NCBI GenBank assembly: GCA_016927065.1
Contig: JAFGNJ010000024.1
Coordinates: forward strand, 1-64,000
Length of the DNA: 64,000 nucleotides
Direction: 5' to 3'
Origin: Deltaproteobacteria bacterium
GTDB lineage: Bacteria; Desulfobacterota; B13-G15; RBG-16-54-18
The position numbers were made by a program, and so were the translations under genes. The stretch's first letter is position 1. Every line of letters starts with the position of its first letter. The notes below the pieces were generated by a model. That model searched no databases, was not told where the DNA came from, and saw only the letters and a program-made list of their open reading frames with translations. This document shows positions 48,889 through 60,883 of this stretch, piece after piece.

Positions 48889-50247
48889 TTATTCTTTTTT
48901 AAGTTTATATTTCTTGATCTTATTATAAAGAGTAACGCGGTCGATTCCCAATTGCTCAGCTGATTTTTGAATGTTCCAATTATTTTCCGCGAGAATTTTT
49001 GTAATATGTTTTTTTTCAATCGATTTTATAGTCTTGTCATCTGAAGATGACACAGTTCTTTTTCCTTTTCTTGCTTGAGGAGATAAATGTAAATCTTCTG
49101 TCTTAATGATTTTTCCCTTGGTGATGACCATGGCACGTTCTATAGCATTTTCCAACTCCCTTACGTTTCCCGGCCAGTCATATGCCATTAAAAGGTTCAA
49201 CGCGTCTTCAGAAATTCGCTCCGCCTTTTCTCCCATTTCTATGTTACATTTTTCTATAAAGTGATGAACAAGGAGTGGAATATCCTCCTTGTGCTCTCTC
49301 AGGGGGGGGAGTTCTATGAATATAACATTCAGACGGTAGTAGAGGTCATTTCTAAAAGTGCCTTCATCTACAGCTTTTTTTAGGTCACGATTAGTAGCGG
49401 CGACGATGCGTACATCAACCCTGATCGGTTTTGTTCCTCCTACCCGCGTGAATTCCTTCTCTTGGAGAACGCGGAGAAGGTTCAGTTGCAACTTGGGGCT
49501 AATATCTCCAATTTCATCGAGGAATATGGTTCCTCCCTCGGCAAGCTCAAATTTACCTTTTTTTTGTGCAATGGCGTCGGTAAAGGCCCCCTTTTCGTGA
49601 CCGAACAACTCGCTCTCAAGCAAGGTTTCGGTGAGGGCAACACTCGAAAAGGGAATAAAAGGACCAGTAGCCCGCAGACTTTCATTGTGGATTGCCCGTG
49701 CCAGAAGTTCTTTGCCCGTCCCGCTTTCACCGAGGATGAGGACATTAGAGTTACTCTTGGCTATGGTATTGGCCAAGTCGAAGACCTTCTGCATCTTGGA
49801 ACACTTGCTTATCAGATCGTGAAATTGATACTGTTTCTTTAATTCCTTGCGGAGATAGGATATCTCTTTGATCAGCGATTGGCTCTCAACCAGCCGTTTG
49901 ATGAGCAAGGACAACTCTTCGGGGTTAAAGGGTTTGACCAAGTAGTCATAGGCCCCTACCTTCATGGCCTGTACCGCTGTATTGACGGTTGCATAGGCGG
50001 TGATAATGATTACCTGGGTCTCGGGCCAGTTCTCTTTGATTTTCCCCAGCAGTTCCAGACCGTCCATTTTGGGCATCTTGAGGTCAATGAGGGTGATATC
50101 CCAAGACTGTCCCCCGAACTTCTCCAAGGCCTTAAATCCATCCTCAGCCGCCTCCACCTGATATCCGTCCTCTCGCAACCAATCAAGCAATGATTCTCTT
50201 ACTATCTCTTCATCATCGACGACCAATATATGAATTTTTTCTCTCAT
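48889..50247 (-). CDS. sigma-54-dependent response regulator (NtrC family)
   Basis: Receiver + GESGTGKELLARAIHNES, ELFGHEKGAFTDA, GGTIFLDEIGDISP; Fis HTH SAEQLGIDRVTLYNKIKKY. Confidence 0.96.
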   Translation of the reverse strand: MREKIHILVVDDEEIVRESLLDWLREDGYQVEAAEDGFKALEKFGGQSWDITLIDLKMPKMDGLELLGKIKENWPETQVIIITAYATVNTAVQAMKVGAYDYLVKPFNPEELSLLIKRLVESQSLIKEISYLRKELKKQYQFHDLISKCSKMQKVFDLANTIAKSNSNVLILGESGTGKELLARAIHNESLRATGPFIPFSSVALTETLLESELFGHEKGAFTDAIAQKKGKFELAEGGTIFLDEIGDISPKLQLNLLRVLQEKEFTRVGGTKPIRVDVRIVAATNRDLKKAVDEGTFRNDLYYRLNVIFIELPPLREHKEDIPLLVHHFIEKCNIEMGEKAERISEDALNLLMAYDWPGNVRELENAIERAMVITKGKIIKTEDLHLSPQARKGKRTVSSSDDKTIKSIEKKHITKILAENNWNIQKSAEQLGIDRVTLYNKIKKYKLKKE

Positions 50248-50251
50248 TGTT

Positions 50252-51847
50252 CTATCTCCGCTGTGCTTTTATCAGAGATCCCCCTTTACGGGTTTCTTTA
50301 TTAGGCTGCACCTGTTCTTTCGGATCATGGGTTGTCTTGATTGCCGTTACCTCCGCAGGCAATTTAATGATGATGATTGCCCCTTTTCCTCTTTCGCTCT
50401 TCACCTGGATAGTCCCGTTGTGAGAGTTGATAATCCCATACACCACTGAAAGCCCCAATCCCGTTCCTTTCTCTTTGGAGGTAAAGAAGGGATCGAAGAT
50501 CTTGGAAATATCTTTATCATCGATTCCCCCCCCCGTGTCCTTGATCTCCACCTGTACCGCCTTCTTCCGTTTTGTTACCAAAGCAGTATCGACGGTTAAG
50601 ACACCTCCGTTGGGCATCGCCTCGCAGGCATTGAGGATGACATTGAGAAAGACTTGCCTCAGCTGGAGTGGGTCGGCCATTATGGGGAGGAGTTGGCCGT
50701 ATTTTTTTTCTAACGTAATCTCTTGCAGTGTTATCTGATTGGCCAGCAGCGAGAGGGCCTCATCGAGCACTTCGTTGATATCTACGTCAGGTTTTAATGC
50801 TGGTTCCCGCTGACGGGCGAAGTCAAGGAGGTTTCTTACGATCGTGCTGCACCGCTCTGTTTCCCGTTCCATAATCTCTAAATAGGAACGGAACTTGGGT
50901 ACCTCATCCTTCTTGATGATGCCATCGCTCAGCTTTCTCTCGATCAGCTTGGTATAGGTCAAGATGCCATTCAGGGGATTGTTTATCTCATGGGCGATGG
51001 TGGCGGACAGCTTTCCAATGGAGGCCAGTTTCTCTGATTGGAGGAGTTGGTATTGGGTTTCTTTGAGTCTCTGGGTCATGGTGTTGAAGGATTTTGCCAA
51101 TTGACCGATTTCGTCCTCGGAGCGGGAGGGGATTGCATGGTTGAAGTCTCCTGACGCTACCCTTGTTGTCCCTTCAGCCAATTCCCTGACCGGTCGATAA
51201 ACCGCCCGTTGGATAAATAGAACGATAATGGCGGAAACTGTCAGGATGGTGATGGCCATGAGCAGTATGGTTGTACTCCGAATGCCCCTTATTCTTGTAT
51301 CAGTTGCGTCGAGTGAAAGGGAAATATCAAGTACTCCCAAGACCTTCTGATCACGGGGATGGACATGGCAATCGGCGGTATAGCAATCGGGTTCATTGTA
51401 GATGGGAGTTATCATCCCCAAGATTCGGTATTCATCTGTCATGAAGATTCTGCTTCTCTCGGGGATGGCCAGCCTCTCCAGCGGTTCCTTCTCGGCGTGA
51501 CATGCGTAGCAGGCCTCGGCATGTTTGTCTACCATCTGCCCCATTTCTCCCTTGTCTGAGGAAAACATGATGGCCCCTTCTTTGTTGAATATACGTATCT
51601 TCTCTATCCCTTCTTGCGCGCCGATAGTCTCGATGGAGTTATAGAGGGCTTCTCTATAGTTGTGCAGCATGTCGAACCAAAGACTTCTCATTAAGGTACC
51701 ACTCAATTGTTTGGCCCCCAAGATGGCTTCATCAAGGAGATGTGCCCGTTGAGCGTTTAAATTAGCGTAGTTAAAGATGCCTATTATAATAACCGTGATG
51801 GCCACTACCCAAAAGATAAGCTTAACACTCAGTTTCCGATATGGCAT
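50252..51847 (-). CDS. Sensor histidine kinase with periplasmic heme-binding motifs
   Basis: Two TMs flank a sensor with CYACH and CYTADCH; HAMP; H-box ATIAHEINNPLNGILTYTKLI; GTGLGLSVVYGII. Confidence 0.92.
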   Translation of the reverse strand: MPYRKLSVKLIFWVVAITVIIIGIFNYANLNAQRAHLLDEAILGAKQLSGTLMRSLWFDMLHNYREALYNSIETIGAQEGIEKIRIFNKEGAIMFSSDKGEMGQMVDKHAEACYACHAEKEPLERLAIPERSRIFMTDEYRILGMITPIYNEPDCYTADCHVHPRDQKVLGVLDISLSLDATDTRIRGIRSTTILLMAITILTVSAIIVLFIQRAVYRPVRELAEGTTRVASGDFNHAIPSRSEDEIGQLAKSFNTMTQRLKETQYQLLQSEKLASIGKLSATIAHEINNPLNGILTYTKLIERKLSDGIIKKDEVPKFRSYLEIMERETERCSTIVRNLLDFARQREPALKPDVDINEVLDEALSLLANQITLQEITLEKKYGQLLPIMADPLQLRQVFLNVILNACEAMPNGGVLTVDTALVTKRKKAVQVEIKDTGGGIDDKDISKIFDPFFTSKEKGTGLGLSVVYGIINSHNGTIQVKSERGKGAIIIIKLPAEVTAIKTTHDPKEQVQPNKETRKGGSLIKAQRR

Positions 51848-52118: not shown

Positions 52119-52559
52119 CTACTTTTTATTCTTCTTTTCATGGCAATCAGTACATCCCACCGGGCCGCTCTCTATTTCTTGATGGCAACCAAGACACTGT
52201 CGATGATAGGCACCTTTAAGCCCTAATCTTGGGCCTTCCTGAGCAGGGTCATAGTGATAGACGATTATAGGTTCATGGCATTCTCCACACGAAGGGGTAG
52301 TTCCCTCTGGGCTATGATGATGGCAGCTGGCACAATCGCCGGCCATCTCGGCATGATACCCGTGTGAAAATTCGACCGGCCCATATCGTTTGGATAAGAG
52401 GTCTAAGGTGATGATCTCCGGCGCATCCGTAGGGTATGCCAGGGTAATGAATAAGAAGATGCTCACACATAGCATGGAAAGTACGGTCAATCTCATCATC
52501 GCTTTACCTCCTTGTGCACAGATGATTTTTTTGCTTGCATACCATCCGATATCAAACAA
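52119..52559 (-). CDS. Tetraheme c-type cytochrome (cytochrome c3-like)
   Basis: Four CXXCH: CASCH, CGECH, CLGCH, CTDCH; signal peptide. Confidence 0.9.
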   Translation of the reverse strand: MFDIGWYASKKIICAQGGKAMMRLTVLSMLCVSIFLFITLAYPTDAPEIITLDLLSKRYGPVEFSHGYHAEMAGDCASCHHHSPEGTTPSCGECHEPIIVYHYDPAQEGPRLGLKGAYHRQCLGCHQEIESGPVGCTDCHEKKNKK

Positions 52560-52573
52560 GCCCTTACAGTCCT

Positions 52574-53818
52574 TTATGCTGCATGTCTGTCCTCTTTAAT
52601 AGTCCATGCAGGCGGCTTCCGGTATACTGCCATCCTGTGGACGATCCACCGAAATACCCAGATATGCGCAAAGACAATAGTGAGGGCCATTACGACCTCT
52701 TGCCATGAAGGAATGTATCTTTCGCTTAAGGGTACATACCATTTGTAGGCGATAAAGACATAATTACACCTATTGATGATAATCCCGGCCATGGTGAGAA
52801 TAGCGGCCATACGGATGATCTTTATATTTCTATCTCGGAAACCCCGTAAGAAGAGTATGCAGGGAATGAGGGTGAGGCCAACTACCTCTGTCAGATACCA
52901 GTAACCCATGGGAGTAGCTATCAAAGACCAATTGGCCCCATGTATCAGGACGAGGGCTTTTAGAAAGAGATAGACGAACATCACCGCTGCGCATGTCTTG
53001 CCAAGACCAAGAACAATATCGTCATAAGACCTTCGAAAGTCATCGGTGAGCTGATTGCCGAAGACACGGGTACTTATGGTTCCTTCAAAGATGACCATAG
53101 AAAGTCCTGCAAAAACACTGGAGACCAAAAATAGTACTGGGATAAACTCGGTATACCAGAGGGGGTGGATATTGGGTTTTGCCATCATAACCAGTGCTCC
53201 CAGACCTGATTGATGAAGAGTCGAGAGGGTGATACCGAAGATTACGGCTCCGAGGGTAAAAGAATGGAGTATCTTTCTGATTTTCTTCAGCCCTAGCCAC
53301 TCAGCAAAGGCTGGGGAGAATTCGATAAATTCAGCTATCATATAGAGCAAAAAATGCCAGGCCACGAGGAAAAGAACGGAGTTTACCCCGAATTTGTTCC
53401 CGATGAGCGGATTTACAATGTTCCACCAGCGGCCTAGATCAAGAAAGATAGCGCCCGCATAAAAGACATAGGCGAGGAAACCGTTGAGGATCGTCGCCCG
53501 TATGATGGGATGGTATTTTTCAGATCGCAGGATATAGACGACGAAGGTGAGGACATAGGCCCCCCCTGCAAAGGCAACACCCACCATGACGTTGAAACCA
53601 ATCCATATGCCCCAGGGGAAGCCGGGGGCCTCGGTGACAACCGAACCTAACCCATTGATAAGGCGATATACGACGAGGATTATCCCGAGGGCCAGGATAG
53701 GGGCAGTAATAATGTTAAAGGGCGTAAAGATTTTGCCCCGTGGTTTTAGCTCAGCGATAATGAAAGCTATGAAATCCTTCAGCGTCCTTTTCTGCAGTGG
53801 TGTTTGTTTATCTGTCAT
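52574..53818 (-). CDS. NrfD/HybB/DsrP-like integral membrane quinone-interacting subunit
   Basis: About ten hydrophobic segments; KFGVNSVLFLVAWHFLLYMIAEFIEFSPAFAEWLGLKK; TLHQSGLGALVMMAKPNIHPLWYTEFIPVLFLVSSVFAGLSMVIFEG. Confidence 0.9.
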   Translation of the reverse strand: MTDKQTPLQKRTLKDFIAFIIAELKPRGKIFTPFNIITAPILALGIILVVYRLINGLGSVVTEAPGFPWGIWIGFNVMVGVAFAGGAYVLTFVVYILRSEKYHPIIRATILNGFLAYVFYAGAIFLDLGRWWNIVNPLIGNKFGVNSVLFLVAWHFLLYMIAEFIEFSPAFAEWLGLKKIRKILHSFTLGAVIFGITLSTLHQSGLGALVMMAKPNIHPLWYTEFIPVLFLVSSVFAGLSMVIFEGTISTRVFGNQLTDDFRRSYDDIVLGLGKTCAAVMFVYLFLKALVLIHGANWSLIATPMGYWYLTEVVGLTLIPCILFLRGFRDRNIKIIRMAAILTMAGIIINRCNYVFIAYKWYVPLSERYIPSWQEVVMALTIVFAHIWVFRWIVHRMAVYRKPPAWTIKEDRHAA

Positions 53819-53842
53819 CGCAGCCTCCTTTTTTTCGTAGTT

Positions 53843-54700
53843 TCAATCCTCTTCCTTCTGTGTAGCACGGTGGACGCCGAGCAGAAAGGCTGGCCACAAG
53901 ACGAAGATAATGGGAACGGCGTAGAGGAATCCTGTGCTCAATTCAGGGAGAGAGGTCGTTCCGAGGTCCGTACGAAAACCAAGCTGTTCAAACGGTACTG
54001 CGGAAAGGTACATAACGGAGGTACCACCCACTTCGGTTTCTCCGTAAATGTGGTGAACATAGCGATCGGGATGCTGATAAATTCGTGTCCTGGCCTCTTC
54101 TAAGAGCTCTCTCCTGGTGCCAAAGACTAAGGCCTCGGTTGGACAGGCCTCAACGCAGGCGGGTATCTCTCCCTTAACGAGCCGTTTATCCCAGCAGAGT
54201 AAACACTTTCTGATTCGAGGCGTAGGACTATGGGTTTCAAGCACCGCCTTCTCAAAGGGGCACGAAAATGCGCACATCTTGCAACCCATACAGTTTTCCG
54301 CCCACGTAACAGGGCCTTCTTCTTCTTTCTTCATCGCTTTCACGAGGCATGCCGCTACACACGCGGGTTGATTACAATGCATGCACCGCTTCACGGCATA
54401 TACGGTCCCTTTATCCGTTTCATAGCGATTGACGACCGTCCACTGAGTTTCTGTTGTGCGCCTCTCTTCTTTAAATACAGAGTCATCCTCGATATCAGGA
54501 ATCGGAAGATCGTATGTTTCTGCACACGCCAACTCACAACTGCGGCACCCAATGCACCGGGTGGTGTCGATGAGGATACTGAGAAACTCTGTTTCCTCAG
54601 CAACTCCTTGAGCATTAAGTCTACCTGGTGCTAGGATACCACCACACGTCATCCCTGCCATTCCGATTCCGATCCTTTTGAGAAATGTTCTCCTATCCAT
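53843..54700 (-). CDS. 4Fe-4S ferredoxin-type electron transfer subunit (HybA/DsrO-like), TAT signal
   Basis: MDRRTFLKRIGIG; Cys clusters CIGCRSCELACAETY, CMHCNQPACVAACLVKAM, CMGCKMCAFSCPFEK, C-terminal TM. Confidence 0.93.
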   Translation of the reverse strand: MDRRTFLKRIGIGMAGMTCGGILAPGRLNAQGVAEETEFLSILIDTTRCIGCRSCELACAETYDLPIPDIEDDSVFKEERRTTETQWTVVNRYETDKGTVYAVKRCMHCNQPACVAACLVKAMKKEEEGPVTWAENCMGCKMCAFSCPFEKAVLETHSPTPRIRKCLLCWDKRLVKGEIPACVEACPTEALVFGTRRELLEEARTRIYQHPDRYVHHIYGETEVGGTSVMYLSAVPFEQLGFRTDLGTTSLPELSTGFLYAVPIIFVLWPAFLLGVHRATQKEED

Positions 54701-55231
54701 GAGCGTTCCTCCTTCAGTTTTTCGTCAAAAGGTTCAGGACTTTCTTTTTGCAACGAAAGATTTTTCTTCCTTTGGTGTGGTTGCCACCCTCGGCCATAGT
54801 AACTCCCTTGTATGTGTTAGGGTCGAATCATTGGTAATCTTCAATCGCTGATCACCATGTTTCTTAAGCATCTAAAGCCCTTTCAAATGGTTTGTAATAG
54901 GGGGAAAAAGGCGGTGCAGGAGGTGTAGGCGATAAGGCCCCCTCCCGCCCCGAAAGCGATGGTTGTTTGGTCTCGTGGTAATGTTCCCTGATAAGGCGAT
55001 CCTTCCCTCCCTCGTCGAGCATATATCAGGGCAACGAATTTGCCCCGCATTGTATGCTATTTTTTTTCTTTGAACAAGCCTTTTTTGTGTAATATGTTAT
55101 TAAACATATTTTCTTTCTGGGATATATTATTTATCGTAATACTTTTTTGTATTATCGATAATTTTCAAAATAATAGGGGCAAACCCTCGTTTTTTTTGGG
55201 GGTTGCCCCCATGAGATGACGCTCTTGTTAG

Positions 55232-55927
55232 CTATTCTTGTGTCAGAAGAAATTCGCTCGCCATCTTATCCCATGCATCGGGAGAAAGGGCCTTGGCAAT
55301 GCCTGTTATGGGAATACCACCATCCTGATATACGACCCCAACTTCACCGCCCATGCGCTCCCGGAGTGCATCCGCCGTTTTCTCCATCCATGCTGTTGCC
55401 AGTTTACCTGTCAAGAGGTTTTTTACCGTTGCACGTTTGTTTTCGGGTTTGACTATCATAAGCCATCCCTTTCCGTAGGGATCCTGATTGACTAGGTCTG
55501 GGTTTTTTGCGATATCTTTATTCACTGCCACGATATCGCCGGTTACAGGCGAGAGCATAGTAATCGTTTTTGCATCAATCCCCAGTTTCCATCCAACATC
55601 GCCCTGCTCAATACGCGAACCAACCTTTGGAAGACTTATCCTATTGGACTTGCCCACAAGTCTCTGAGCGAAATCGTCTACACCGACCTTGACCAATTCA
55701 GCACCCTGTGGCATGACCCACGTATGTCCCTGATGGTAGAACAATCCCTCTGGGAGAGAGAACCATTGAGCAACCGACGCCATAGCCCTTCTGACCGCTT
55801 CAATACCTGACCGCGCAGGCACACGTAAAAATCTCCAGAAGGGGACAATGATTATGAGAAAACCGATCACGAGAAGATATTCAATACCTTTCGTCGCAAA
55901 GATGTCAACGTAAGTGAAACCTTCCAT
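55232..55927 (-). CDS. Membrane-anchored GcvH-like protein lacking the canonical lipoyl lysine
   Basis: LFYHQGHTWVMPQGAELVKVGVDDFAQRLVG...MLSPVTGDIVAVNKDIAKNPDLVNQDPYGKGWLMIVKP; N-terminal TM. Confidence 0.82.
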   Translation of the reverse strand: MEGFTYVDIFATKGIEYLLVIGFLIIIVPFWRFLRVPARSGIEAVRRAMASVAQWFSLPEGLFYHQGHTWVMPQGAELVKVGVDDFAQRLVGKSNRISLPKVGSRIEQGDVGWKLGIDAKTITMLSPVTGDIVAVNKDIAKNPDLVNQDPYGKGWLMIVKPENKRATVKNLLTGKLATAWMEKTADALRERMGGEVGVVYQDGGIPITGIAKALSPDAWDKMASEFLLTQE

Positions 55928-55990
55928 AACTACACCTCCTTATGATGTTTTTGTGCCGCTACTCCTAGTTCAGTATGAGGTACGAGATCG

Positions 55991-56260
55991 TTATCGTTTG
56001 CTCTTACTCTTACGGGACTTTTTCTTGATGCGGTCGCCGCCATCAGCCATGGTGAGCCCCAGTCGAGCATGAGGGGACAGGATATAACCACGCTGGACAT
56101 CCTTTATTCGCTGTTCGCCGTAGTGCTTGAGTACCTGGAGCCCGCCGCCGATGGTCCTCGCGAAGGGGTAAAACGTAATGTAGATGGCATAGGCCAAAAT
56201 GGCTATGCCCAAAACAACCCCTACGCTTACCAATACTATGGTAGTAATGGTCGCTAACAT
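55991..56260 (-). CDS. Small single-TM protein with C-terminal DGG motif
   Basis: 89 aa: TM + ARLGLTMADGGDRIKKKSRKSKSKR; same motif in both flanking GcvH-like proteins. Confidence 0.7.
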   Translation of the reverse strand: MLATITTIVLVSVGVVLGIAILAYAIYITFYPFARTIGGGLQVLKHYGEQRIKDVQRGYILSPHARLGLTMADGGDRIKKKSRKSKSKR

Positions 56261-56277
56261 GGCTCATTCCTCCTTTC

Positions 56278-57195
56278 TTAATTTTCCAAAAAGGTCTTTA
56301 TTAGTATGCCCCACTGGCTCTGAGTGACGACGTCCCGCAGGGTGTCTATCAACTGCCCGCCATCACTCATGGTAATCCCGATCTCCGTTTCCAGTACACC
56401 GTGGAGCCGATCTATCTCATCCTCCAACCACCTGCGTGCACCAGGGGTTGCTATAAACCCTTCTCCCCCTTGTTCCAGACGGTCTAATTCCGCTTCGGCT
56501 AGGCGCAACTCCACCAACCATCCCGCACCATAGGGATCGGTATTGATCAAAGACGTATCCCGACGAACCTCCTCATTGGCATTCATCAAGGTGCCGGAAA
56601 GGGGGGAGGCAATTTCGGCCGTGCCGTGGGAACAACGTATCCGAAGAAGGGGTTTATTGCGCTCCACATGTTCCTTACGCCTCGGGAAACTAATTTTGTC
56701 TATATCCCCCAACAGCCACTGGCCAAAGTCATCCAGTCCCAGCCGTACCTTTCCGTTGACTCGCTGCAGCCAGAGATGGCCGCGGTGATAATAGACTGTA
56801 TCATCCAAAAGAAAACCTCGCACCGTCATTGTCTCACCGGAGGCTCTATCACCCTGAGCGATCTGGCAATAGGCAGGACAATCGATGTAGGCCTCAGTGG
56901 TACAGGGACACTCCAGCTTGAAGGCGCTGGACGGTATCATTTTCTTCACCGGATAGACCTCACAAAAAAGAACCTCCTCTACTTCCAAATAGGGACAGAC
57001 CTTCTTATTACTGGAATGACCAGAAAGCCGCTCAGCATCTTTAGCACGATAGACAGGACAGGTAAGATGTTCCTCTTTTATACAGATATTGTCCTGGTGA
57101 TAGAGTCGATCGTAAGGAAGCATCTTCCTGACGGGGAAGCCCTTGCAAAAGGCCATCTTCTCATCTTTTAAAAAAGGACAATATGTTTCCATCAT
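56278..57195 (-). CDS. Duplicated four-Cys module fused to GcvH-like domain
   Basis: N-terminal repeats CPFLKDEKMAFCKGFPVRKMLPY...C...CPVY and CPYLEVEEVLFCEVYPVKKMIPS...C...CPAY; C-terminal GHLWLQRVNGKVRLGLDDFGQWLLGD...DPYGAGWLVEL. Confidence 0.8.
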   Translation of the reverse strand: MMETYCPFLKDEKMAFCKGFPVRKMLPYDRLYHQDNICIKEEHLTCPVYRAKDAERLSGHSSNKKVCPYLEVEEVLFCEVYPVKKMIPSSAFKLECPCTTEAYIDCPAYCQIAQGDRASGETMTVRGFLLDDTVYYHRGHLWLQRVNGKVRLGLDDFGQWLLGDIDKISFPRRKEHVERNKPLLRIRCSHGTAEIASPLSGTLMNANEEVRRDTSLINTDPYGAGWLVELRLAEAELDRLEQGGEGFIATPGARRWLEDEIDRLHGVLETEIGITMSDGGQLIDTLRDVVTQSQWGILIKTFLEN

Positions 57196-57225
57196 AATCC
57201 CTCTATCTTTTCTTATTTATTAAAC

Positions 57226-57241
57226 AGCATTTTTCATGCCA
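57226..57241 (-). promoter_or_regulatory. sigma-54 promoter candidate
   Basis: Minus strand TGGCATGAAAAATGCT, GG-N10-GC; ~31 nt upstream of ATG 57195. Confidence 0.6.
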
Positions 57242-57336
57242 TAAAAAAATACCACCAAGAAATTTTTTAAGTAGCTTAATTTATTAAACATTTTATGATA
57301 GTGATCGGAAGCTGCCTTGCTCCTCTATCAAAAATT

Positions 57337-57416
57337 TGTTTAATATTTAAACAAAAAGACCTTTTATTTTATAATGTATTGTTTTTATTATGGTTTATAT
57401 GTTGATTAATTAAACA
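57337..57416. promoter_or_regulatory. Two 17-nt palindromic candidate operator/UAS sites
   Basis: TGTTTAATATTTAAACA (57337-57353) and TGTTGATTAATTAAACA (57400-57416), 63 bp apart. Confidence 0.45.
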
Positions 57417-57455
57417 AGCTTTGAGTGTTGATTCAACATATCTTGGTCTGGGCGC

Positions 57456-58007
57456 TTACTGTCCTTTTTGGCTGCGTCGCAGTAGCTCGTTACACCCTTC
57501 ACAAAAGGTGGAACCTTTTGCATCTACGTCGGCGATATTGTTGGCCACGGACATCACACACTCCCTGAGAGAGCAGTGGATGAGTCCAAAGGTATGTCCT
57601 AATTCATGTTTTATTTCCTTGATCAGTCTTCTCTGCAGAAGGGCTTGATTGGGCGGCAGGCCGTAAAACTCCTGTTGCAGGCGGGCGAATGAGACGATTC
57701 CCACGTTTCCATCCAACTGCGCCTCGCCGAAGACAAAGGTTAAAATCGGTATGAAGAGATCATGGGAGATGATACCGATCATCTTCGAGGCATCGGCAGG
57801 GAGCTCGTCCAACATCTCCTTGAGGATCTTGGTAGAGTGATATTGTTTGCGACTCGGGTCGTAGAAATTTTCCGGATTAATCGTGCTCCGTGAAATTTTT
57901 GTCGCGGACCTAAACTCTTTCCTTATAGTCTCCTCCACTTCTCTGAGGCCTATCACGGTATCCGCCTCTCCGATTATGTGGATATCAATATACGTGTCCT
58001 TTTTCAT
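57456..58007 (-). CDS. Archaemetzincin-like zinc metalloprotease
   Basis: KHELGHTFGLIHCSLRECVMSVANNIADVDAKGSTFCEGC matches HEXXHXXGX3CX4CXM...CXXC. Confidence 0.92.
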   Translation of the reverse strand: MKKDTYIDIHIIGEADTVIGLREVEETIRKEFRSATKISRSTINPENFYDPSRKQYHSTKILKEMLDELPADASKMIGIISHDLFIPILTFVFGEAQLDGNVGIVSFARLQQEFYGLPPNQALLQRRLIKEIKHELGHTFGLIHCSLRECVMSVANNIADVDAKGSTFCEGCNELLRRSQKGQ

Positions 58008-58128
58008 ATATGGTGAAAATATCATGGTATAGGGAGGGGTTCAAGGGTGTTTTCCGGCACGGCAGAGGGGGCCTCAGCGCGGCGCATCACCAAGAGGCCT
58101 TGTTCTCTCAGTGCTTTTAAAGTTTATC

Positions 58129-58157
58129 TTGACAATGAGGGAGCATTTTGTTACAAA
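58129..58157 (+). promoter_or_regulatory. sigma-70-type promoter
   Basis: TTGACA-N17-TACAAA upstream of multiheme cytochrome; lies inside the longest ORF, so start 58201 is more likely. Confidence 0.55.
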
Positions 58158-58200
58158 ACGCACAAGCTTTACAGTAGAAACTTATAGGGGAAGTAAAAAA

Positions 58201-60174
58201 ATGATTTGGGTTGCAAATAAGAGGAAGCGAGGGGGCGTTGCTCGCTTTTTCGTCACTGTTAGTTTAGTGTCTGCGGTCCTCTTTGTGTGGACTGGCATGG
58301 CTGTTTCCTTCGATAATGAAACATGTCTCGAATGCCACGGGAGCCGGGATATCCTCGAGATGAGCAAGGAAGATCGACTCGAGATGGTCGTCCCTACCCC
58401 CGACAAAAAGGAAGTGTATAAAGGTGAACTTACCCTTTATGTGGATTATGAGCAGTTTCGTTCCACAGTCCACCAAGATCTGAGTTGTGTTGATTGCCAT
58501 AACGATATCGAGGATGTCCCCCATCCACAAAGGCTGGAGATGGTTGATTGCTCGCAGTGCCATGAAGTGATAGTCGGTCAATACAATAAGAGCAAACATG
58601 CACAGGTCAGCCTCAGCCTCTGTTTTGAGTGCCACAACCCCCATGCTACTACTTCTTTCAGGCAGCTCTCCCAAAAAGAGCGGACGGGAATCTGTCTGCA
58701 GTGTCACGAGAAAAATGGGCATGGGTGGTTGCCCCAGCAAGAGCTCCACTTCCAATATTTGGAGTGCACGGCCTGTCACTCTCCCCAGGCAGTAAAGGGG
58801 CTTTTTTTCTATCTCACAGCCCAGGGAAAGGATGGAGAGCGGTTTAACCTCTCCTACCCTCAATTGGAGGAAGCCACCCGTGGATATCAGGGCGATGTGG
58901 CAAAGGCCATTGATCACAATGGAAACGGCATCGTGGAAGTGCATGAGATCAACAGGTTTATCGCCAAGCTACAGGAACAGGGGATACAGTCCCCTCGTCT
59001 TCAGGAGCGGGTGCTGGTATTACAGCCGTATCATAATTTTACTGATGAGGTTAAGCAGATTAAGGATTGCACGATGTGCCATGTCTCAGGTGCACCTTTT
59101 TACTCTCAGGTGATGCTCAGGATACCTGAGGTGAGCGGTGGATGGCGCACGGTCAAGATGGACAAGGCCATCGTCGGCAAGCTCCCATCTATTCCCTCTA
59201 AAGACTATTACTTAACAACGGTTCATGGCCAGAGTGGTGTGGAATGCGTTGATTGCCATGCTGATTTGACCGTCTTGCGTGCAGGGGAGGGATTTGAGGT
59301 AAAAGGACTGAAAACGCCCGTCTGTGAACACTGCCATGCGGATGTGATGACAGAATATGAGGACAGCCTTCATGCCAAGGTCAGCGAAGAAATCTGTTTT
59401 GGTTGCCATGATCCCCATTCCAGCGTCCCCTTCAAAGAGCTGAATGTTGAACAACGCCAAGCCATCTGCACCAAGTGTCATGATCCAGAGCGGGGACACG
59501 AGTGGCTGCCTCAAAAGGAACTGCATTTCAAGGCCCTGGAGTGCACCATGTGTCATGCCCCTCAAGCGGAAAAAGGGATTGTCTTTTACCTTCAGAGGGT
59601 GGATCAAGAAGGAAAAGCGGAGCGACTTGAATACGGTGAGCTAGCCACGTTGCTGGATGTGCAACAACCTGATTTGACAAAGCTCCTGGATAGCGACAGC
59701 AATGGATTTTTGGAGGATCGAGAAGTCCTCACTTTTCTCACTGCATTAAAGGAAAAGAGTCCCGGAGAAGAGATAAAGCTGGGGGTGAGGATCTTGGTTC
59801 TCAATCCTTCCCATAACTATACCGATAAGGGGACCAAGGCAAAGGATTGTTCCCTCTGCCACTCCTCCGGGGCGGGCTTCTACTCGAAATTGATAATGGA
59901 GATACCTGAGAGCGAAGGTGGTATCAGAACCCTCCCCATGGACAAAAGCATCCTTGCCGGGATGTATCGCATTAGCGATATTTATTTGTTGGGGGAGGGT
60001 AAGATTTCTAAGCGAGATATCGCAGACCTCATGTTTGCCGTGAGGAAGATCGGTTATAAGTGGCTGGATGTGATTGGTATATTGTTCATTTTAGGCGGCT
60101 TAGGTTTTGTTGGGGTGCATACGTTTCTCAGGATAATCACCATAGGGACGCGAAGAAAAAGACGGAACAAATAA
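58201..60174 (+). CDS. Multiheme c-type cytochrome with 13 CXXCH motifs, internal duplication and two EF-hand-like loops
   Basis: CXXCH counted by eye: CLECH, CVDCH, CSQCH, CFECH, CLQCH, CTACH, CTMCH, CVDCH, CEHCH, CFGCH, CTKCH, CTMCH, CSLCH; N-terminal signal anchor and C-terminal TM. Confidence 0.93.
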   Translation: MIWVANKRKRGGVARFFVTVSLVSAVLFVWTGMAVSFDNETCLECHGSRDILEMSKEDRLEMVVPTPDKKEVYKGELTLYVDYEQFRSTVHQDLSCVDCHNDIEDVPHPQRLEMVDCSQCHEVIVGQYNKSKHAQVSLSLCFECHNPHATTSFRQLSQKERTGICLQCHEKNGHGWLPQQELHFQYLECTACHSPQAVKGLFFYLTAQGKDGERFNLSYPQLEEATRGYQGDVAKAIDHNGNGIVEVHEINRFIAKLQEQGIQSPRLQERVLVLQPYHNFTDEVKQIKDCTMCHVSGAPFYSQVMLRIPEVSGGWRTVKMDKAIVGKLPSIPSKDYYLTTVHGQSGVECVDCHADLTVLRAGEGFEVKGLKTPVCEHCHADVMTEYEDSLHAKVSEEICFGCHDPHSSVPFKELNVEQRQAICTKCHDPERGHEWLPQKELHFKALECTMCHAPQAEKGIVFYLQRVDQEGKAERLEYGELATLLDVQQPDLTKLLDSDSNGFLEDREVLTFLTALKEKSPGEEIKLGVRILVLNPSHNYTDKGTKAKDCSLCHSSGAGFYSKLIMEIPESEGGIRTLPMDKSILAGMYRISDIYLLGEGKISKRDIADLMFAVRKIGYKWLDVIGILFILGGLGFVGVHTFLRIITIGTRRKRRNK

Positions 60175-60202: not shown

Positions 60203-60883
60203 ATGGCGCGGCGAAAGAAAGTCCGGCAGAAGAGAGATCAGGAGAAAAAAGAAATATTGCAACCCCTCGTGGTACGAATTTGGCACTGGATCCATGCCCT
60301 TGCCATCGTCCTTTTGGTGCTGACCGGAATACAATTGCGATTTCCAGATTTGATTTCCTGGTTCGGGACCTTCAAAACCGCAGTGGACGTTCATAATATC
60401 TTTGGGTTCATCGTGTTGTTCGATTACGTGCTCTGGTTTGGATTTTATCTAATAACTGGGGAGTTGTTCAAACAATATGCCCCTACGCCTGAGGATTTTA
60501 CCATCGGAATCCCGACGCAATCGACGTACTACTTTGCCCGCATCTTCTTTGGTGATCCCCCACCTTTTGAGCCTACACCAAAGGCCAAATTTAACTCCTT
60601 GCAGAAGACCACCTACTTCGGCATCATGTTTGTTCTTGTCCCCCTTCAGGTAGTGACCGGTGTTCTCCTTTGGGATTTGGAGAGATTCCGTCCTTTAATA
60701 GCGGCGCTGGGTGGCGTAAGGGTTCTTGATGCCTTTCATATTATTCTCGCCTATATATTTACGTCCTTTTTGATTGTTCACATCTACCTTTCTACGTTGG
60801 GGCATACCTTCTTTTCCCACTTTAAGGCCATGATCGTGGGATATGAGGAAAAGGAGACAGGACATACTCAGACGTCCGCATAA
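60203..60883 (+). CDS. Cytochrome b (b561/formate dehydrogenase gamma-like) membrane subunit
   Basis: VVRIWHWIHALAIVLLVLTGIQLRF; AVDVHNIFGFIVLFDYVLW; ILAYIFTSFLIVHIYLSTLGHTFFSHFKAMIVGYEE. Confidence 0.9.
   Translation: MARRKKVRQKRDQEKKEILQPLVVRIWHWIHALAIVLLVLTGIQLRFPDLISWFGTFKTAVDVHNIFGFIVLFDYVLWFGFYLITGELFKQYAPTPEDFTIGIPTQSTYYFARIFFGDPPPFEPTPKAKFNSLQKTTYFGIMFVLVPLQVVTGVLLWDLERFRPLIAALGGVRVLDAFHIILAYIFTSFLIVHIYLSTLGHTFFSHFKAMIVGYEEKETGHTQTSA

Follow-up and report, generated by a model that had tools for sequence, protein, structure and literature searches.

The stretch of DNA analysed here (the window) comprises 64,000 nucleotides from a Deltaproteobacteria bacterium (GenBank assembly GCA_016927065.1, contig JAFGNJ010000024.1, positions 1 to 64,000) and is contig C30 of a 2.48-Mb genome that is 94% complete. 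Its minus strand carries a membrane electron-transfer module of the Hmc/NrfD class together with two GcvH-like proteins, here named GcvA and GcvB, an M54 archaemetzincin, a sensor histidine kinase with heme motifs and an NtrC-family regulator. An earlier reading made without database searches (the sequence-only reading) had described six co-oriented minus-strand genes followed by the kinase and regulator genes, and all were present where it had placed them. It had named these genes correctly and omitted the adjoining archaemetzincin gene (57456-58025), which belongs to the set; the end coordinate that it gave, 57241, is the position of a sigma-54-type promoter element. The features of the locus are as follows.

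57456..58025, minus strand: M54 archaemetzincin, active site HELGHTFGLIHC intact (Pfam M54, E=1.8e-26; NF033823 above cut-off)
57399..57417, no strand assigned: degenerate palindrome copy, 63 bp from the first, candidate NtrC upstream site 2
57336..57354, no strand assigned: perfect palindrome TTGTTTAAnnnTTAAACAA, candidate NtrC upstream site 1
57226..57241, minus strand: sigma-54-type -24/-12 element TGGCATGAAAAATGCT, 46 bp before the gcvB ATG
56278..57195, minus strand: gcvB, Cys-module and GcvH-like protein; two CPFL four-Cys repeats, a GcvH-like domain without the lipoyl Lys and a C-terminal DGG extension (GCV_H in the profile search, Cys-rich N-terminus unmatched)
55991..56260, minus strand: small one-helix membrane protein; cytosolic tail with a TMADGG motif resembling the GcvH-like C-terminal extension
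55232..55927, minus strand: gcvA, HmcD-type N-terminal helix, predicted cytosolic GcvH-like domain and C-terminal DGG extension (GCV_H; partial match to the HmcD model NF045712)
53843..54700, minus strand: HmcB/HybA-like Tat-exported ferredoxin, 16 conserved Cys, C-terminal membrane anchor (NF045715)
52574..53818, minus strand: HmcC/HybB-like NrfD-family quinone-site membrane subunit (NF045714; Pfam NrfD)
52119..52499, minus strand: periplasmic tetraheme cytochrome c3, TmcA-like (PF02085, 6.5e-12; four CxxCH)
50252..51847, minus strand: sensor histidine kinase, periplasmic domain with CxxCH and CxxxxCHxH heme motifs
48889..50247, minus strand: NtrC-family sigma-54 response regulator

A gap of 530 bp separates gcvA from the iron-sulfur (FeS) gene (54700-55232); it contains an inverted repeat at 55173-55212, and no sigma-54 element was found in it. 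For the tetraheme cytochrome an ATG start with a ribosome-binding site is favoured, the TTG at 52559 given in the open reading frame listing being less likely. The small one-helix protein matched no Pfam family and is kept in only some relatives.

The membrane electron-transfer half

Curated profile models were used to classify the membrane genes. The HmcB model matched the ferredoxin with 311 bits (cut-off 420), the HmcC model matched the NrfD-like protein with 379 bits (cut-off 550), and the HmcD model gave a partial match of 25 bits (cut-off 34) to the N-terminal helix of GcvA (residues 10-34), so that homologues of HmcB, HmcC and HmcD are present together at the locus, all under the equivalog cut-offs. 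Pfam NrfD (PF03916) matched 52574-53818 above its cut-off (1.8e-10). The tetraheme cytochrome is closest to TmcA (NF045722, 66 bits, cut-off 114). The ferredoxin bears a twin-arginine translocation (Tat) motif in 70 of 72 sequences, and its 16 conserved Cys residues would hold four [4Fe-4S] clusters. In the NrfD-like protein E166, H202, E311 and E374, among other residues, are fully conserved; no solved structure was matched to it by sequence. The membrane half is a variant of the Hmc/NrfD class.

Three described systems resemble this half in part. Like the HmcABCDEF complex of Desulfovibrio, the locus has HmcB-, HmcC- and HmcD-like parts and a c3-type cytochrome; it differs in that the 16-heme HmcA is absent, with the tetraheme c3 in its place, in that no HmcE- or HmcF-like gene was seen among the locus proteins scanned, in that the HmcD-like helix bears a GcvH-like domain, and in the addition of the Cys-GcvH protein, the archaemetzincin and the heme sensor kinase. 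QrcD, a relative of HmcC, is a subunit of an electrogenic menaquinone reductase, and its proton path is reported to be conserved in HmcC (PMC6303296). QrcABCD shares with the locus an NrfD-family membrane subunit and an Fe-S partner fed by a periplasmic cytochrome; QrcB, however, is missing here, and the QrcD and QrcC matches are weak (63 and 55 bits against cut-offs of 570 and 400). Cbc4 (CbcSTU) of Geobacter, compared by description, also combines a c-type cytochrome, an Fe-S protein and an integral membrane subunit, but its paper (PMC11434368) nowhere names 'GcvH' or 'glycine cleavage'.

Distribution and gene neighbourhood

A scan of named genomes returned 219 GcvA relatives, of which the best 80 come from Desulfobacterota, Gemmatimonadota, Bacteroidota/Ignavibacteria, Calditrichota, Nitrospinota, Nitrospirota, Rokubacteria, Planctomycetota, Acidobacteriota, Eisenbacteria, Krumholzibacteria, Glassbacteria, Schekmanbacteria and Myxococcota (Anaeromyxobacter). 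GcvA accompanied by HmcB/HmcC-like genes spans at least 12 phyla, and because cultured Anaeromyxobacter species are among the carriers of the locus, direct testing is feasible. The gene set recurs in dozens of distant genomes, far beyond chance.

The neighbourhoods of GcvA-type (type-A) and GcvB-type (type-B) genes were then compared. In the 28 of 60 type-A loci that lie away from contig ends (interior loci), genes were found for NrfD in 28, the FeS protein in 27, NtrC in 27, the histidine kinase in 26, the Cys-GcvH protein in 24 and M54 in 24. In 47 of the 60 the NrfD gene immediately precedes gcvA, often with a 22-nt overlap, and the usual order is FeS-NrfD-GcvA-CysGcvH-kinase-NtrC-M54, of which the window order (M54-GcvB-small protein-GcvA-gap-FeS-NrfD-c3-kinase-NtrC) is a variant. 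Within the fetched stretches around 20 type-B loci, NrfD was found in none, NtrC in 17, the kinase in 15 and M54 in 15: the steady partners of GcvB-type proteins are the kinase, NtrC and M54. One genome of the window's own family (G048) keeps M54-gcvB-small protein and kinase-NtrC and has no gcvA, FeS or NrfD gene there. The sequence-only reading had taken the two GcvH-like proteins alike for accessories of the NrfD/FeS module. This is supported for GcvA, which stays with NrfD, and not for GcvB, whose homologues often occur away from it, an outcome that corresponds to half of what that reading had named as refuting it.

Type-B loci have other redox neighbours. Multi-[4Fe-4S] proteins are encoded near 9 of the 20; HdrABC-like operons lie directly downstream of the GcvH gene in two loci (L070, L071), an HdrA-like protein is encoded nearby in L062 and a formate-dehydrogenase-type pair in L056. 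In three loci a GcvH-like domain is part of a polypeptide of 970-1130 aa, fused to an MvhD/molybdopterin-binding chain (L060:9604-12522, L067:7144-10110) or to an HdrA-like/ferredoxin chain (L068:7705-11109). A 580-aa open reading frame in Anaeromyxobacter (L153, L154), considered as an NrfD-GcvA fusion, was dropped as a long high-GC frame lacking NrfD-like helices.

Pairwise distance correlations were 0.93-0.95 among Cys-GcvH, M54, kinase and NtrC in the CWM set, 0.91 for GcvA with the FeS protein, and 0.66-0.87 across these groups. An ordinary Hmc-like operon might lie beside a regulatory operon, the two joined by shared ancestry and nothing else; that the regulatory core also occurs without HmcBC, and that the 530-bp gap parts the two in the window, would agree with this. 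Inheritance alone would not, however, preserve an association that all 28 interior type-A loci show across many phyla and in varied order and strand, and we consider unrelated neighbours improbable.

GcvH-like domains, Cys modules and archaemetzincin

AlphaFold models of GcvA and GcvB contain the GcvH fold, with Foldseek template modelling scores (target) to 1onl of 0.92 and 0.86, respectively. Across 78 related domains the motifs H-x-G-H-x-W, V-G-x-D-D-F and D-P-Y-x-x-G-W are conserved and the lipoyl column is not: lysine occupies it in 13 of 80 aligned domains, two true GcvH proteins included. The GcvH-like domains also share a C-terminal extension with a D-G-G motif, which true GcvH lacks. 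Scores of GcvA against TIGR00527 (79.7, cut-off 115.85) and NF002270 (88.8, cut-off 117) fall below both cut-offs, and those of GcvB are lower still. The hairpin of GcvB has no lysine, and its lipoyl site is, judging by the alignment, clearly absent. In GcvA the hairpin carries K120, offset by one residue from the lipoyl position of GcvH; among 60 type-A proteins this position is Lys in 39 and Arg in 10, and Lys is missing in 21. Lipoylation of GcvA thus appears unlikely. The description of both proteins as lipoyl-lacking is accordingly clear for GcvB and needs care for GcvA.

A role in glycine cleavage was rejected, in agreement with the sequence-only reading: the genome's own lipoyl GcvH is encoded on another contig (C7) beside lipB and lipA, and GcvB has lost the lipoyl site. 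A different lipoyl function has a precedent in LbpA, a GcvH-like protein linked to an Hdr-like complex (PMC6067878), that of the sHdr sulfur-oxidation system. The GcvH-like proteins could likewise be lipoyl carriers, a lipoamide arm moving electrons or sulfur, given their fold, the hairpin Lys of most type-A proteins and the LipA- and LipB-like proteins encoded beside the true GcvH. LbpA resembles them in being of GcvH type and recruited to a redox complex rather than to glycine cleavage, but it keeps the lipoyl Lys in all cases, whereas that residue is unconserved here, and the window locus has no Hdr genes. With the lysine missing from 21 type-A proteins and from the GcvB hairpin, and no lipoate ligase recognised among the locus proteins by profile searches, lipoyl carriage is very improbable.

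No signal peptide was seen in GcvB, which is predicted to be cytosolic. The flanks of the GcvA helix carry 1.1 versus 2.8 basic residues, and from this charge the GcvH domain of GcvA is predicted to lie in the cytosol. Stand-alone HmcD-like peptides of 47-49 aa with the N-terminal helix of GcvA are encoded at G000:C4:1082-1183 (L004) and L035:2001-2144.

The N-terminus of GcvB consists of two CPFL repeats (C-x10-C ... C-x7-C); in the second, C67, C78, C98 and C106 are invariant in 20 relatives. Among the window genome and its matching close relatives, no gene other than gcvB was found to carry the module. As a free-standing protein of ~70-110 aa it lies beside GcvH-like genes in Nitrospinota, Rokubacteria, Acidobacteriota and Anaeromyxobacter, and in other lineages its place is taken by a four-Cys module of another type, C-[VI]-W-M-x-[AT]-G. 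A known homologue was sought for both modules, and neither matched a Pfam family or a solved fold.

The archaemetzincin scored 166.7 against NF033823 (cut-off 145), and it shares with the M54 family intact catalytic and Cys-rich zinc motifs, HExxHxxGxxHC and CxxC. The full pattern HExxHxxGxxHC....C.M is kept in 57 of 68 relatives and the other 11 retain HExxH....HC. Judged by its motifs the window protein is catalytically intact and appears active. GcvH-like matches were listed to E ~1e-25 in 297 genomes of the phylum: M54 was present in 70 of the 72 genomes with a listed match, where 26.7 would be expected (hypergeometric p 2e-36). Of the 146 listed matches, 109 lie 8 kb or less from an M54 gene (median 2.2 kb).

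A retained metalloprotease motif, and the presence of Cys-GcvH and M54 beside varied redox complexes (HmcBC, Hdr, formate-dehydrogenase type) or with no such complex nearby, would also suit maturation factors for iron-sulfur oxidoreductases, that is system-specific chaperones and a processing peptidase that are neither subunits nor regulators. GcvA is, however, anchored by an HmcD-type helix, and the fusion of GcvH-like domains into HdrA- and MvhD-type chains fits subunits better; a tight bond to a kinase and NtrC would be unexpected for a chaperone. Maturation is rather unlikely as their role.

Local regulation and proposed mechanism

The -24/-12 element before gcvB is kept as TGGCAYRGAAAATGCT, with one variant base, in four related loci (L035, L036, L037, L039), and in two of them (L035, L039) the first palindrome reads GTTGAAATATTCAAC at the matching position. 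With up to one mismatch the palindrome has a single site in each of four same-family genomes (the window genome, G239, G010 and G048), just upstream of gcvB. Six more genome sites appeared at two mismatches and were not clearly above a reversed-pattern control, so no wider regulon is claimed. Among 115 module genes, 24 have a sigma-54 motif upstream; for the remaining genes of these loci the figure is 3 of 303. A -24/-12 element with paired upstream sites is the layout of an NtrC/sigma-54 operon, the sites here being candidates. The diheme-type motifs CxxCH and CxxxxCHxH mark the sensor domains of HmcBC-linked kinases, and type-B kinases are without them.

In two loci (L102 and L105) the first module is adjoined by another, which has a multiheme cytochrome of 8 to 13 hemes and separate heme kinase and NtrC genes; that of L102 also has FeS-NrfD.

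Taken together, the locus probably encodes a quinone-cytochrome oxidoreductase of the Hmc/Qrc class that is regulated locally, has GcvH-like subunits in the cytosol and is coupled to a portable redox-sensing and proteolysis core. Its composition and regulation are well supported by gene content, conservation, co-occurrence, promoter and palindromes, all read from sequence; for its topology, electron path and direction and kinase signal, and for what the GcvH-like proteins and the protease do, we infer the following scheme. A complex of the Hmc/Qrc/Hyb class would move electrons between periplasmic c-type cytochromes and menaquinone, by way of the c3 cytochrome, the four [4Fe-4S] clusters of the HmcB-like protein and the HmcC-like protein, in either direction. 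Its HmcD-type small subunit would have acquired a cytosolic GcvH-like domain. The soluble four-Cys GcvH-like protein, the archaemetzincin, the heme-bearing periplasmic sensor kinase and NtrC would form a portable sensing and turnover core, in which the kinase hemes sense the redox state of the periplasm and the kinase phosphorylates NtrC; NtrC would then occupy the two palindromes 63 bp apart and activate the sigma-54 promoter that drives the gcvB operon. On the cytosolic face, the GcvH-like proteins most likely act as docking, assembly or signalling subunits without catalytic activity, and the most likely target of the protease, to be removed or matured, is the Cys-GcvH protein or a partner.

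Several observations weigh against this scheme. Shared ancestry contributes to all of the distance correlations, and just one fifth of the module genes have an upstream sigma-54 match. The lysine at the GcvA hairpin leaves lipoylation possible for some GcvA proteins. The window's gene order is unusual, with gcvA upstream of FeS/NrfD across the gap, and FeS-NrfD-c3, for which no sigma-54 element was found in the window, may be a separate transcription unit.

A broader proposal, possible and offered tentatively, is that the core crosses phyla and plugs into HmcBC at the membrane or into Hdr, MvhD or formate-dehydrogenase types in the cytosol, the lipoate-free GcvH sensing redox state or metal and, through its turnover by the protease, setting the level of the complex.

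Open-access literature was searched for GcvH with NrfD, archaemetzincin with kinases or operons, HmcC/HmcD and Cbc4. No described complex of this composition was found there, in line with the sequence-only reading, nor any link of archaemetzincin to GcvH-like proteins and a two-component system; within that scope, which leaves absence unproven, the core association appears undescribed. It would give the widespread but functionally obscure archaemetzincin a strong bacterial genomic context, suggests that GcvH-like domains became parts of respiratory complexes once the lipoyl site had been lost, and points, in many uncultured phyla, to an Hmc-class complex that has a dedicated heme sensor.

No PADLOC defence families were recognised. 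A 13-heme cytochrome (58111-60174, plus strand) and a cytochrome b561 (60203-60883, plus strand) diverge from the M54 gene; the pair also adjoins M54 in L035, L039 and L166, and a 12-heme protein and a membrane protein next to M54 in L109/L170 are its counterpart.

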